Shown in pieces: positions 35,103 to 63,626 of a DNA stretch of 64,000 nucleotides. A model generated the notes under the pieces. It was not told the origin of the DNA, ran no database searches, and was given only the letters and a program-made list of their open reading frames with translations. A program made the position numbers and the translations under genes. This DNA is from Patagioenas fasciata (taxonomy: Eukaryota > Chordata > Aves > Columbiformes > Columbidae): assembly GCF_037038585.1 (NCBI RefSeq), contig NC_092520.1:189080604-189144603 (forward strand). The letters are read 5' to 3'. Within the stretch, counting starts at the first letter, position 1. Each line of letters starts with the position of its first letter.

Positions 35103-35645
35103 AGTCACAGAATAATTTAGGTTAGAAGGGACCTCAGAGGTCACCTAGTCTGAACTGCTCCTCAAAGCAGGACCAGCTTCAAGTTACAGAAGTTGCTTAA
35201 GGTCTTCCTCACCTCCAAGGGTGAAAATTGGGGGATTGGACTAGATGATCTTTTGAGGTCCCTTCCAATCCCTAACATTCTGTGATTCCACTATCTCTTG
35301 AAGAAGCATGACCCAGTTCTTACCTGTTCTCAGTGAGAGGATGTTTTCCCATACATATAGTCAGAATAGACCATCCTCTAACATGTGATTGAAGCTTCCC
35401 TTCCTTTGTTGTGCATCTCTGAGGAGAACTTTGCTCTCCCTTTTAGTTGAAAAGAGCAGTAAGATCCCTCCTTCACCTTCTCCTTAACCTTCTTCTCTGC
35501 AGTTGAGCAAGCCCACATCCCTCACCCTCTCCCCACACATGTTCTCCAGCCACTGAACTCGCTTCAACTTGTGAACATCTCTCCTGTATGCGGGAGGCTA
35601 AAACTGGACACAGTACTCTGAGTAACGGATTGAGGAGAATGATCA
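35103..35645 (-). mobile_element. Old CR1 LINE 3' end (minus strand), interrupted
   Basis: Read on the plus strand it starts with the reversed CR1 terminus TCACAGAATAATTTAGG..TTAGAAGGGACCTC..AGGTCACCTAGTC. It continues after the nested element (about 35,225-35,287) into reversed ORF2 sequence: AAGATCCCTCC..CTTCTCC, then GTTCTCCAGCCAC, then AAACTGGACACAGTACTC near 35,600. That last segment is the antisense of the avian CR1 protein region around 'LEYCVQFW'. The reading frame is destroyed by indels and stops. CR1 is a non-LTR retrotransposon that usually inserts 5'-truncated, and this copy is one such fragment. The 5' boundary near 35,645 is approximate. Confidence 0.75.
35225..35287 (+). mobile_element. 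CR1 3' tail nested in the older CR1
   Basis: The segment GGATTGGACTAGATGATC..TTTTGAGGTCCCTTCCAATCC..AACATTCTGTGATTC is a textbook CR1 3' terminus in plus orientation, with one and a half ATTCTGTG octamers. It splits the minus-strand CR1: sequence left of it aligns to the tail side and sequence right of it to the more internal part. It is therefore the later insertion, severely 5'-truncated to about 60 bp. Confidence 0.75.

Positions 35646-47367: not shown

Positions 47368-47405
<38 letters not shown>
47368..47405. repeat. (TA)n followed by (CA)n microsatellite
   Basis: Fifteen TA units run directly into four CA units. The perfect TA array suggests it is still length-variable. Confidence 0.9.
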
Positions 47406-50400
47406 AATATATCTATATAAAAGCGTGACAAATGGCTGATGGGGATTAGAAGGGACAGAGCTGTTGGAGTTCGATGTCACCCAAGTTTAGGCAAATGAGC
47501 CACCTAAGATCATCTGCGGCAACCTGTGTCAGTTAGGAGACAAAGACATCACCAGAGGACTGTTCAGTGACCAGGGAGGAACCTGAATCACCAGCTAGCA
47601 CTATTTCTCCTTTGCCCACTGGCCTCAGAAGAAGACCCTCAGGGGAGAGGGTCTCACCCAGGAACCTCAGCTAGTCATTGGGAGTCAGGTGGGCTCCCCA
47701 GCTCAGAAAGTGCAACTACCAAAGGTGCCTATCACAGGCCTTTCTGCACAGAGAGGCAAGGTCTTCAAGCAGATAATGCTTGTGTTCATGAGGATCTTCA
47801 CTGTAGAGTCAAGAGGCCATCCAGTTGTTAGCTCCTGGGTTAGACTAGTGTCAATGAGATCATTTCCACATCTCACTCACTCTGCCCTCTCCGTGAAGGC
47901 AGTTCTTCATAGCACTTGGACCACTCTGCTCTCCTTTCTACAGCCTTAAAAAGAGTTTTTGCTCCATACCAGTTTCCCAAGGAACTTGGCTGCCCTTCTG
48001 AGTACAAAAAGAGTTGTACAAAGGCAGGCAGGGGTTTACCAGCACCTGTGTGACTTGTCCTGCAACCTCACTGCAAGGTGAGTGAATAGCCAGTCCAAAG
48101 AAAAGCAATTCTTCGCCTCAAGCTTATACATACATATACATAACCTAGTGAAAACACCTCATGAGTAGGTGAATGGAAGAGTAGGAGCAACAGCTGAGAA
48201 AGCAAAGGGCTCCAACTGCACTTGAGGCAGGAGGGTCAGGGCACAAAACCAGCAGTGAAGACAGACCTAAGGGATCATGGAGATACACATTGCCAAGCAA
48301 GTTAAATCCTGACACTTCCATTGTTTAATCCATCATGTATAAATGGTTGCCTTTCACCTCTTCCTCTGAGAAATGTGTGCAGGCAGATTGCGACATCCTC
48401 AGCTATGCTCATTATTCAAAATTATTTCCAAATTGGTTTGCAGAATGTTTCCCAAGTGCAGAGCCTGGGAGTGTTTTGTAACAAAGTGCTGGTTATCTAG
48501 GCTTTGTTCATTGAGTAACTCATGCATTTCTGGGTTTGCTTTGGGATTAGAGGACACAGTAGAAGGCAAATAGTAAGCTCTCATTGTCATCATCAAATAT
48601 ACCACTGGAAATTTATTGCCAGCTCAAATATCCCTCTAGACTGAGTGTGCAAGTTAATAGCCTGTCTTCATTTAGATGTGTATGTGAAAGTGTCACGAAC
48701 TCAGAACTTGGTTTGGGATTCACATAATTATTTATAGGCATGTGTTTTGACTGTTCACTCAGCTCTGGTGATATATCTGTACAAGTGTTCAGTTAGGTGA
48801 CAATGCATGTGGCAAAGTGGCAGCTCTGTAGCCTTAATTTATTCATCACAAGGTGCATTGGTTTCTTGATCCAGTTTCTGGAGAAATATTTAAACCTCCA
48901 GCTGGCGCAATGTAAAGTAACATTCTAAAATAGAAAGGTGACATTAAAAGAAAAAGTAATGAGTAGTCTGGAGTGAAGCTGACTGCACACAAAACCTTGA
49001 CATAATGCAGAATAAAGAGCCTCTCAGGCAGCGTGTAGCTGAATCTGGCCAAGACACATGCAAGAGAACGGGAGTGATATCACCCCTAGACCTGGTGTTT
49101 CAGTGCAAGCTGCTGAACCCCTCTCACAGAGTGCCCGGTGCTAAGTATGGGCAGAAGAGGAGATCAGGTGTCAGTTTACCTCGCCGGTGAATTTGAATTG
49201 TCATTTCCTACTTTTGCAAGTGTGAGCACGTGCTTGCTTGCAGTCCAGCATGGTGATTCTCGTGCTCCTGCAGGAGCCAGGCCAAGTACAGCCTCAGCAC
49301 AAGCTGCTGTGCATGCAACAAAAAGCCATTTCCTCCAGAGCCGAAGGACACTCAGAGATCCACAAACACTGAATCAGGCCATGTGCTTTCATTATGTCCC
49401 TTGTATTGGTCAAGTTGTGGTGGTTTTTTTTAACAAAAGATACCTCAAATGGCTCATATTTATATTAAAGATGTAGAGCCTACATAGTTTAAAATTATGT
49501 TAAAACCAGATTAAATAAATACTGCAATAAATACAATCATATATTTAAAAATGCCAGCATAGATAAAAAGAAGCTTAGGGTAAACCAATGATCTCAAAAT
49601 ATTGAATTCCATAGTGCTTCTTAAGAAAACTCTCCCTGAGTCAAGTTGTTTAGTGTTTTAATAACCATTTTCTCAATGTTACTAATGCAACTTCCAGTGA
49701 GTCACTAAAGGACTCAGTTTAGAAATTATTTCCAAAAGATCTTTTGAAAATCCATCTTGGTTTACAAGCTCCATCTTTTGATTATTATTACCTGAGAGAA
49801 GCATTATCACCTCCATCCCACAAATTCTAACTAATAATCTGCTTTCATACCCCAGTATTCCACATCATCATGGAATAAAAATTGCTCCGGTTTGGCATCT
49901 TTCATTTGAAAAAGTTTTTACTGCAGCTTAATACAGAGCCAAATATAGGGGTGATACACAAATAGAAAGGGTTTATTCCATAATGCATATAGCCGCTTCT
50001 GCCTCAAGAAAGGTTGTGGTGCTTTTCCGTGCTTTTCTTTCATCATCCCTGGGGTTTTCTGAGGGTAGCATTGGACTCAACATGGTGTTGGACACATCAC
50101 AGTACTTTTATCACTATGGCCTTCTATGGGGTAGCTTTGAGCTACAGGAGGTGGTCTCTAGCCATAACAGTCCTGTCCATGCACCTTCAGCCTTGTCTGC
50201 CTGCCTGGGCTCCTGGCCTGCCCCTCAGGATGGTGACAGACAACCCAGCTCCACCTCCAGGGTATCCCATCAACATGTGTAAAATGTGAGAGCTGCTTAA
50301 TAAACTTCTGTGCCAGCTTTTAGAAAAGGGGAGATAATTGTTCTTACCAACGAGACAACAGGTGCCTCATTAGTGTAGTATATTAACCCAGTTTGTAATT

Positions 50401-50719: not shown

Positions 50720-51710
50720 GTTGTGTGATTAAAGGCTAATCACCAGGAAAACAAAGGCCTGGCGAGGAGCAGATGAACAACAGAGCAGAGGAGCCCTAGC
50801 GACCCAACAACCAGGAAAACAAGGCAGGCAGAATTGGCTGCTCTGAACACTGTCCAAGAAGTATTCACCCATCATGACTGCTGTCAAACCCACCAAGATG
50901 AGTTAGCCAAAGAAATCACCTCCTCAGAAAACCTTGCAGACTGCCAGGGGTTATTGCCTACAGGGGCACAGGGCTCACTACCAGAGGTTGGGAAGGGCAT
51001 TTGGGGATTATATGAAGTTTACTATGTGAAGTTTTAAAGAGATTGCAGAAATGTATGAGATTTACAGGATATTTAGGGTATGGAGCAATGATGTGGAACG
51101 GGAGGCATCAAGGTGGATTGGAGGGGAACAAGCAAGTGAAAACAGAGTTAAAAGGGGACAAAAGTGGCCGGTTGTGTGTAAGCAGGTTGCTAGTCAGTGC
51201 ACTTGCCTGACTGAGCCCTGTGCTTCATCACCACAGTCTAACTGATATTCTGATTAAATCCTATTTATAATGCTCTTATTTTCTCAGTAGAAATGTGTGA
51301 ACGAGTAGGATAAGAGGTGGGTGTGCCAACAACAGGAGCAAGATTGTGAACATCCACATCTGGTACATATGGGTGTCAGCACCTGGGGAGACCAGGGAAT
51401 CTGGGACCCACTACTGGAATGATCCATACTGTGTTTTTATAGATATACATGTATATAAGTATATATATACACACACATATGTATATTCACACACACACAT
51501 ACTTTCCACTAGTGGACTTCAATCCTGATCAGTTGGAGAGGAGGAACAGCATCGGGCCACCTGTGCTCTCTGTGGGTGCTGTGTCCATGTAGGTGCTGGT
51601 GAGGTGCCTGTTTCTCTCTGTGGGGCTGGGCACGTGTGTTCATATATATGTGTGTGAGCACATGCGCACCTTCCCCACTGGCTGGACTTCACTATCAAAA
51701 TGCCTTTAGG
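50720..51710 (+). mobile_element. Probable old solo LTR / ERV-related repeat
   Basis: The roughly 1 kb segment has the texture of an avian endogenous-retrovirus LTR. It has a TGTGATTAAAGGCTAATCACC-like start, a purine-rich middle (GGAACGGGAGGCATCAAGG) and a polyadenylation-type ATTAAA at 51,253-51,258 after a CTGAGCCCTGTGC block. A GT-rich 3' part with microsatellites follows. Neither gag, pol nor env-type frames flank it, so if correct it is a solo LTR. Exact termini and a target duplication could not be fixed; the resemblance is recalled, not searched. Confidence 0.35.
51434..51502. repeat. (TA)n/(CA)n compound microsatellite
   Basis: ATACATGTATATAAG is followed by TA units, CACACACA, a short TATGTATATT bridge and a second CA run. 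It lies within the probable LTR. Confidence 0.8.
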
Positions 51711-56612: not shown

Positions 56613-56820
56613 CTACAGAGCAGAGGTGTCAGACTCATTTTCACTGGGGGTCCCATCAGCCTCGGGGTTGCCTTCAAAGGATCAAATGTAATTTTAGGAC
56701 AGCATAAATGTAGGAGTGGTTACATTTTTACAGTCCTAAAATTACATTTGGCCCTTTGAAGGCAACCCCAAGGCTGATAGGGCCCCCGGCAAAAATGAGT
56801 CTGACACCCCTGCTATAGAG
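56613..56820. mobile_element. Foldback hAT-type DNA transposon (nonautonomous) with TSD
   Basis: The element at 56,621-56,812 is 192 bp. It consists of a 92-bp left arm (56,621-56,712), an 8-bp loop GGAGTGGT (56,713-56,720) and a 92-bp right arm (56,721-56,812). The right arm is the reverse complement of the left with 12 mismatches by hand count, 10 of them transitions. The termini are CAGAGGTGTCAGACTC and, reversed, CAGGGGTGTCAGACTC, a typical hAT end. The 8-bp flanks CTACAGAG (56,613-56,620) and CTATAGAG (56,813-56,820) differ by one transition and fit the hAT target form nTnnnnAn. There is no coding capacity, so mobilisation would have needed a transposase in trans. Divergence of the arms indicates an old, inactive copy. 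The subfamily was not identified. Confidence 0.85.
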
Positions 56821-62210: not shown

Positions 62211-62324
62211 AGACAGCCTGGTTTGCCTTTTTGAAGGACTGAGCCACTCCGAGTATCTGAAAAGGGGGGACAGCCAAAACGAGAGGCAGGCATTTCCTCA
62301 CCCCACAGTTCACACCATGTGTCT

Positions 62325-62348
62325 GAAGAGACTGGACAATGCCCTCAG
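62325..62348 (+). mobile_element. Older CR1 3' end, left fragment
   Basis: GGACAATGCCCTCAGA matches a segment that in avian CR1 3' regions lies shortly upstream of 'gtcctatgcagg..ggagttggac'. Here that continuation is found only after the inserted element, at about 62,960. The left limit is approximate, and the join is inferred from recalled CR1 tails. Confidence 0.45.
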
Positions 62349-62876
62349 AAGGCCAATGGTATCCTGTCCTGTATCAAAAATAGCGTGGTCAGCAGGACAA
62401 GGGAAGTGATCCTTCCCCTGTACTCTGCATTGGTGAGGCCACACCTGGAGTATTGTGTTCAGTTCTGGGCCCCTCAGTTCAGGAAAGACATTGAAGTGCT
62501 GGAGCGGATCCAGAGAAGAGCAACACGACTGGTGAAGGAACTTGAGCACATGACCTATAGGGAGAGGCTGAGGGAGCTGGGGTTGTTTAGTCTGGAGAAG
62601 AGGAGGCTTAGAGGTGACCTCATCACTCTCTATAACTACCTGAAGGGAAGTTATAGCCAGGTGGGTGTTGGTCTCTTCTCCCAGGCAGTTAGCAATAGAA
62701 CAAGGGGGCATGGGCTTAAACTCTGCCAGGGGAAATTTAGGCTGGATATTAGAAAGAAATTCTTTACAGAGAGAGTGGTCAGGCATTGGAATGGCCTGCC
62801 CAGGGAGGTGGTGGACTCGCCGTTCCTGGAGGTTTTTAAACTGAGATTGGACATGGCGCTTAGTGCCATGATCTAG
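62349..62876 (+). pseudogene. CR1 ORF2 C-terminus (endonuclease/reverse transcriptase), truncated
   Basis: This is the carboxyl end of the CR1 ORF2 polyprotein, whose full form carries an APE-type endonuclease and a reverse transcriptase used for target-primed reverse transcription in the nucleus. Only the region after the catalytic RT core is present: 175 codons ending in TAG at 62,874. The diagnostic motif [14 protein letters not shown] is followed by the helical segment [17 protein letters not shown], then [38 protein letters not shown] and [16 protein letters not shown], all hallmarks of avian CR1. The YADD-type catalytic box and the endonuclease are missing through 5' truncation, so it cannot act. 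An in-frame GTG at 62,319 extends the frame into older sequence and is not a real start. No internal stop or frameshift was found. Confidence 0.9.
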
Positions 62877-62964: not shown

Positions 62965-63048
62965 GGCATTGTCCTATGCAGGAACAGGAGTTGGACTTGG
63001 CGATCCTTGTGGGTCCCTTCCAACTCAGGACATTCTATGATTCTATGA
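62965..63048 (+). mobile_element. Older CR1 3' end, right fragment
   Basis: GGCATTGTCCTATGCAGG is followed by GGAGTTGGACTTGGCGATCC, TTGTGGGTCCCTTCCAACTC and two ATTCTATGA octamers. This is a complete CR1 terminus of a different subfamily from the adjacent one (ATTCTATGA instead of ATTCTGTGA, GTGGGTCCC instead of GAGGTCTTT). Together with 62,325-62,348 it forms one older CR1 split by the younger insertion. Confidence 0.8.
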
Positions 63049-63626
63049 TGTGCCTTGCTACCATGATTCCTGTCCTGAGGTGTCTGGAGGTGTCCAGCCA
63101 GGCTCTGGGTGTCCTCCAGGAGCAGGGGGCCTTAGTTTTGGGTGCTGCAGTGATGGGTGACGTTGCCTTCAGCTTGTCTGGGTGCTGCCTCCAGGATCTC
63201 CTTGCAGAGGGACCGCTCCATTACATCCAGCCATTGAATCACTGGGGGATGGCACCCCAGGGCAGAGGCAACTCAGAGGGGAATGTTGCTGGTAAAAGAT
63301 GTTAGACTAGAGCATCTTTGTGCCTATAATCTCTTCTTTTTCCTTTCTTATGATCACTAGGAGAACTTATGGTTCCACAGCCTCTCAGATATGGTGTGCT
63401 GAGAACAGCCATGCATGGCTGCTGTGGTACCACAAAGGACAATATTGCACCAGCAGGACATTAAATGAGCCTTGGGGTTTCTCGAGTTAGCTGAACTGTG
63501 CTGCCAGAAACAACACTCCTGCGAAAGCCCTGGTGGAATTAGTGTGTCAGAAATCACGGCATTTTCAATATTTCTGATTAAAAAATGTATAGTTGAAGGA
63601 AATAACACAGAAATTGCCAAATATTT
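63049..63626. other. Noncoding DNA, no gene recognised
   Basis: Moderately GC-rich just after the CR1 nest (63,060-63,290), then AT-rich. Short frames only, with no recognisable product. Confidence 0.5.

Follow-up and report, generated by a model that had tools for sequence, protein, structure and literature searches.

A decayed hAT foldback MITE in the genome of Patagioenas fasciata and identical changes in both arms across its family

Within the window, the 64-kb stretch of Patagioenas fasciata DNA analysed here, a 192-bp foldback at 56,621-56,812 is a non-autonomous hAT foldback MITE, and its relatives across the genome carry the same change in both arms more often than expected by chance. 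We consider it very probable that this element is a decayed copy descended from a palindromic founder mobilised in trans, and that patches of one arm were later copied onto the other in such copies. The element itself is of an ordinary, known kind, and the family may already carry a name in Dfam or Repbase.

A foldback element and its dispersed family

The initial annotation had described 92-bp arms around an 8-bp loop, with 10 of 12 arm mismatches being transitions, and both descriptions were reproduced for the window copy. The left arm (56621..56712, forward strand, 92 bp) starts with CAGAGGTGTCAGACTC and is separated by the 8-nt loop GGAGTGGT (56713..56720) from the right arm (56721..56812, reverse strand, 92 bp), which terminates in GAGTCTGACACCCCTG; arm limits were set by repeat search and family alignment, and the family consensus loop, GGAGTAGT, is found in 62 of 95 copies. 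The two mismatches that are not transitions are transversions, and an inverted-repeat search placed the arm length at 94 nt, with 87% complementarity. Of the 13 inverted-repeat pairs in the window with arms of at least 30 nt lying at most 5 kb apart, this foldback, which is not a chance structure, is the longest, and no second copy was found within the 64-kb window. Elsewhere in the window, TA/CA-rich simple-repeat arrays at 47368-47419 and 51430-51501, approximately 4 kb apart, form imperfect inverted repeats.

Folding of the transcript, proposed as a check from the outset, gave an RNA energy of -145.5 kcal/mol, compared to a mean of -56.3 (sd 4.4) for 200 dinucleotide shuffles (z -20). The accompanying suggestion that the hairpin could be a small-RNA precursor gained no support. 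At the gathering score, no Rfam family, and hence no microRNA-precursor family, matched the window. Permissive Rfam scans returned 27 and 5 entries, including many microRNA families at low E-values, all of them below the curated score, of a generic hairpin kind, and with several families matching both strands. Homology to microRNAs was rejected because the four alignments shown rest on pairing rather than on sequence, with scores below the curated ones, and a full-text literature search for one microRNA name returned nothing.

The window element is one of a multi-copy family within the host genome, which comprises 1.454 Gb in 359 contigs. Five genome queries (the window copy, L033, L043, L010, and L026), for each of which the best 40 of 2437-2733 candidates were scored, identified at least 118 distinct places including the window, so that the further copies on which the initial annotation had staked its reading do exist. 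All 118 were fetched and aligned; as the nearest relatives of five copies, they are a non-random sample that bounds the family size from below. The better-matching strand of each scored place was 83-89% identical to the query, copies are spread across many contigs, and no two of the 118 aligned copies are identical. In the consensus, the arms are complementary at 90 of 92 pairs for the first 40 copies, 92 of 92 for 95 copies, and 91 of 92 for 118 copies, with a single CpG site of the 118-copy consensus divided between G and A. Since the consensus arms are nearly fully complementary, nearly every arm mismatch arose later. Outside the host, phage and plasmid records gave no match to the element (E up to 1), and viral and prokaryote contigs did not contain an exact 24-base pattern; neither result is surprising for an animal element. 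A full-text literature search with the end sequence returned a single paper, which was unrelated.

The ends and flanks of these copies identify the element type. Short terminal inverted repeats of the form CAG...CTG are hAT-like, and the hAT-type termini noted in the initial annotation recur as the consensus 5′ end CAGGGGTGTCAAACTC and its complement, the 3′ end GAGTTTGACACCCCTG, across both the 95-copy and the 118-copy alignments; we take these ends to be Charlie/Buster-like. Among the 118 copies, the 8-bp flank pairs are perfect in 27, differ at one position in 41, and at two in 21, i.e., 89 copies have at most two mismatches compared to 11% of left/right flank pairs drawn from different copies, which confirms the 8-bp target duplication across the family. 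An 8-bp duplication is given for hAT elements in PMC3942097.

The target pattern itself differs from the one first proposed. The initial annotation had fitted the window flanks to nTnnnnAn, which fits 12 of the 27 perfect duplications, whereas nnnTAnnn fits all 27. Flanks are TA-centred in 159 of 178 cases among the 89 copies with good duplications, position 2 is T in 153 and position 7 is A in 155 of all 236 flanks (118 copies), and the consensus target site is CTCTAGAG. nnnTAnnn is the signature of the Buster group and nTnnnnAn that of the Ac group; the family flanks conform to the Buster-type target, with group assignment itself requiring a transposase. The available text of PMC3942097 states that the Buster and Ac groups differ in target-site selection, and a search of that text for either signature found neither. 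Given the 27 of 27 perfect duplications with nnnTAnnn, the window copy probably inserted at CTATAGAG, the sequence preserved in its right duplication (56813..56820, from flank comparison), and the left duplication, CTACAGAG (56613..56620), has mutated, its central CA probably having changed from TA.

An empty site is available for a sister copy, L044 (C1:163213313-163213504), which sits inside a CR1-like repeat, as judged by its 3′ end. When the L044 flanks are joined with a single 8-mer, alignments to related repeats run through the junction: L005 has an intact single GACTAGAT, equal to the right flank of L044, L045 has a single but diverged site, and L058 and L051 are one and the same place, in which the site is too diverged to judge. 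This junction is a paralogous empty site for the sister copy, and not for the window copy. Taken together, the shared hAT-type ends, the 8-bp duplications, and the paralogous empty site make this a non-autonomous hAT foldback MITE, consistent with its other attributes: 192 bp in length, multi-copy (118 aligned), too short for a transposase, and with inverted repeats and duplications at its borders.

The window also includes pieces at 62235-62876 (+), 62992-63049, and 35230-35288 that we take to be CR1 retroposon fragments (a reverse-transcriptase-like frame and 3′ ends). The 3′ ends of these pieces match the flanks of L044 and L045, and neither of the two window open frames scanned against Pfam, one of them the CR1-like frame, gave a match. 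In another copy, L046 (G000:C1:28354869-28355657), the right end is missing its last bases and a near-copy of the left flank, TCTTAGGG, follows almost directly, which points either to loss of a few bases by deletion or to an insertion that was truncated at its end.

Profile searches of the genome with PF05699 (hAT dimerisation domain) and PF14291 did not recover a hAT transposase with the family ends. PF05699 had seven matches (31 of 31 candidates scored), of which four lie in open frames of 573-1181 aa (C1:117355548, C1:195509776, C1:3913447, and C27:1983834), one in a 131-aa frame, and two in sequences with stops. The four long frames may be host genes derived from transposases, and the only PF14291 match is apparently inside one of them. 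Around the seven PF05699 matches (approximately 4 kb on either side), the family ends were matched at chance level only, and the best end-located match, in L055, spans 11 nt (E 2.1). The autonomous source may have disappeared, have decayed too far, or lie beyond the reach of these two profiles. Since a non-autonomous copy need not encode a transposase, membership in the family is independent of finding this partner.

Identical changes in the two arms

Across the 118 copies, non-CpG arm sites deviate from the consensus at 6.0%, while the window copy deviates at 10.9% of its 192 sites. With a bird neutral rate of around 2 per billion sites per year, the family divergence would place the sampled copies at roughly 30 million years, in a sample that leans to well-preserved copies, and further back if the host lineage is slow. 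Read against the consensus, the 12 single-arm changes of the window copy comprise 8 that are C>T or G>A, 2 transitions in the opposite direction, and 2 T>A. The C-to-T decay proposed in the initial annotation therefore stands insofar as 8 of its 10 transitions run in that direction, but just 2 of these 8 fall in consensus CpG columns.

The same copy carries four further changes present in both arms, undetectable without the family comparison, so that its mismatch count understates how much it has changed. All are given on the forward strand. They are an A->G at arm position 12 (56632, mirror 56801), which is also paired in L046; an A->C transversion at position 33 (56653, mirror 56780), absent from both arms of all 94 other copies in the 95-copy set; a transversion from CpG C to G at position 45 (56665, mirror 56768), also paired in L014; and a change from CpG G to A at position 64 (56684, mirror 56749), a weak case in that the right arm of the 118-copy consensus has the A state. 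Over 95 copies, the two arms of a copy mismatch at 11.8% on average, compared to 14.1% when a left arm is set against the right arm of another copy.

Changes identical in both arms were counted over 84 non-CpG column pairs and compared to shuffles in which left and right arms were re-paired. The 118 copies include 74 such paired changes versus 21.6 expected (maximum 38 in 1000 shuffles), with at least one in 51 of the 118. A similar excess was observed for the first 40 copies (29 versus 9.7, reached by none of 2000 shuffles), for 95 copies (60 versus 15.4, maximum 28 in 1000 shuffles), for the 55 copies after the first 40 (31 versus 7.5), and for the last 23 copies (14 versus 6.3, with 3 of 1000 shuffles reaching 14). 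Sites at which the two arms had changed to different bases, used as a control, showed no excess (21 versus 25.0 expected, 118 copies), so that uneven mutation rates or ages do not explain the paired changes. Paired transversions were also in excess over the 118 copies (31 versus 5.0), and non-significantly so in the last 23 (4 versus 1.8, with 80 of 1000 shuffles reaching 4); transversion share does not differ significantly between paired and single changes (p 0.62).

Decayed CpG sites, which were excluded from this count, behave likewise. At four sites in 95 copies, doubly decayed CpGs were concordant (TG/TG or CA/CA) in 105 cases and discordant in 44, and 118 copies gave 102 and 39 over the three sites at which each consensus arm has a CpG. 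The excess of paired changes extends over every third of the arm (outer 23 versus 6.2, middle 17 versus 3.4, inner 20 versus 5.8). Paired changes do not follow a simple clock, with no smooth rise with divergence: across four bands of rising divergence, there are 0.70, 0.36, 0.50, and 1.13 per copy (Spearman 0.20, p 0.056). In one copy, L033 (G000:C3:47010307-47011104), four non-CpG changes are common to both arms.

Paired changes are surrounded by regions in which the arms are unusually similar. Arm mismatch was 0.055 at 1-3 nt from a paired change, 0.081 at 4-8, 0.084 at 9-15, 0.096 at 16-25, and 0.103 at 26-45, compared to 0.12-0.13 in the same columns of other copies (0.124 at 1-3 nt and 0.126 at 26-45 nt). 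Single-arm changes have no such dip nearby but a slight rise (95 copies). Within 8 nt, the dip is seen both for paired types found in one copy (0.060 versus 0.130) and for those found in several (0.082 versus 0.115). This local loss of mismatches is the trace that copying of short patches between arms should leave, and the profile suggests a patch scale of approximately 10-25 nt. Identical changes in both arms thus occur beyond chance, and in patches. Template switching has a second hallmark, an inverted spacer, but the (almost) exact mirror symmetry of the founder arms leaves the orientation of the loop without a reference.

Paired changes also lean towards GC, with 43 AT>GC and 21 GC>AT, compared to 316 and 490 for single-arm changes, i.e., an excess of paired per single-arm changes of approximately 0.11 for AT>GC and 0.02 for GC>AT. 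The bias persists when copies are bootstrapped (none of 2000 replicates at or below zero), when CpG-creating changes are excluded (p 0.00015), and when CA/TG/CG columns are excluded (p 0.014). Collapsed to types, the counts are closer to even (27 AT>GC and 18 GC>AT, or 20 and 18 once CpG-creating changes are excluded), and the 18 GC>AT types alone are below the shuffle maximum of 21. The local dip is weaker for AT>GC pairs (0.093 versus 0.122) than for GC>AT pairs (0.049 versus 0.128), and so some AT>GC pairs could be older, inherited states. We regard the GC bias as a tentative lead, which, if real, would favour repair.

Origin of the paired changes

In the reading we favour, the founder would have consisted of two almost perfectly mirrored 92-bp arms around an 8-nt loop, and a hAT transposase, acting in trans as the ends and duplications suggest, would have bound the terminal sequence and its complement, inserting copies at 8-bp TA-centred sites and duplicating these. 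After insertion, copies would have mutated independently, and occasionally a short patch of one arm would have been copied onto the other, leaving a change common to both. Such copying could occur when the palindrome, single-stranded during replication, folds into a hairpin, either through a polymerase template switch between arms or through mismatch repair of the extruded hairpin.

The main alternative is inheritance, in which paired changes descend from several source palindromes (subfamilies) that were already perfect, with no copying after insertion. Recurrent types are what this would predict, and 10 of the 48 paired types in 95 copies do recur, each in 2-4 copies, indicating that part of the signal is inherited; some arm copying therefore probably occurred while the family still jumped. 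An A>C at arm position 11, for instance, is paired in four copies and present in one arm of a fifth; any two of these five differ at 19-29 sites, compared to a mean of 27.5 overall. The weaker mismatch loss around AT>GC pairs points the same way. We nevertheless consider inheritance an unlikely explanation for the whole signal, since 38 of the 48 types are private to one copy, compared to 11.9 in shuffles (maximum 23), and since left arms share 22 paired changes with the right arms of their nearest relatives (12-17 for the second to fifth nearest) compared to 60 within copies. The mismatch loss is strongest precisely for the one-copy types, and L033 is 93% identical to its own reverse complement, whereas none of the 39 other scored places exceeds 88%. 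A perfect source palindrome would, moreover, itself require an arm-copying event.

Somewhat less probable again is an artefact of assembly or polishing, in which reads or k-mers from one arm corrected the other and produced spurious paired variants. Near-palindromes are hard to sequence and polish, and the suggested patch scale (approximately 10-25 nt) is near that of polishing k-mers. However, most arm differences persist (mean arm mismatch 11.8%), and the roughly 52 excess pairs in 19,824 non-CpG arm sites would require about a quarter of a percent of wrong bases, or about half a percent if corrections towards the consensus were equally frequent, which is high for so contiguous an assembly. 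We give very little weight to selection for hairpin pairing, e.g., in a small-RNA precursor, which would favour compensatory changes: the fold is very stable, but the arms average the same 11.8% mismatch, copies are scattered over many contigs, and the window has no Rfam family at threshold, the permissive matches being generic long hairpins below the gathering score. That the foldback is an inverted repeat born by chance or duplication, and no transposon at all, would suit its single occurrence in the window, and is hardly credible given that 118 copies, scattered across the genome, have the same ends and 8-bp duplications.

Related elements and significance

As in hAT foldback MITEs generally, the family combines 8-bp duplications, short CAG...CTG ends, a size too small for a transposase, and many copies; unlike in those, no transposase partner was found here. 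The closest parallels are the Drosophila hAT MITE Mar (PMC3517528) and the MITE-like BuT2 copies of D. willistoni (PMC3942097), which are likewise non-autonomous hAT elements, the BuT2 copies having 8-bp duplications and measuring 532-927 bp, and both differing in host and sequence. In birds, the galluhop MITEs (PMC5556988) are similarly old, massively amplified, and non-autonomous, with coding copies undetected, but belong to the mariner family rather than to hAT.

Template switching between inverted-repeat arms is described in yeast (PMC8604942) and for RNA genes (PMC8794818). In these cases, as here, one arm of a near-palindrome templates the other and paired changes result; the published examples concern yeast coding genes and RNA genes, whereas here the signal is statistical and spans one transposon family. 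Arm homogenisation within a MITE family was not described in the titles and abstract openings of the literature searched. The observations thus fit a known process, arm-to-arm copying, occurring in many parallel palindromes.

The element being ordinary, the value of the family lies in its many dispersed near-perfect palindromes, each close to an independent replicate. It is conceivable, albeit doubtful at this stage, that the family constitutes a natural many-copy record of arm-to-arm gene conversion in a vertebrate germline, proceeding in GC-biased patches of approximately 10-25 nt and driven by hairpin mismatch repair over template switching. With such a family one could measure, in a vertebrate genome, how often arm copying occurs, how long its patches are, and which bases it favours. 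Arm mismatch would, in turn, underestimate the age of foldback elements, as reflected here by 11.8% mismatch within copies versus 14.1% between copies.
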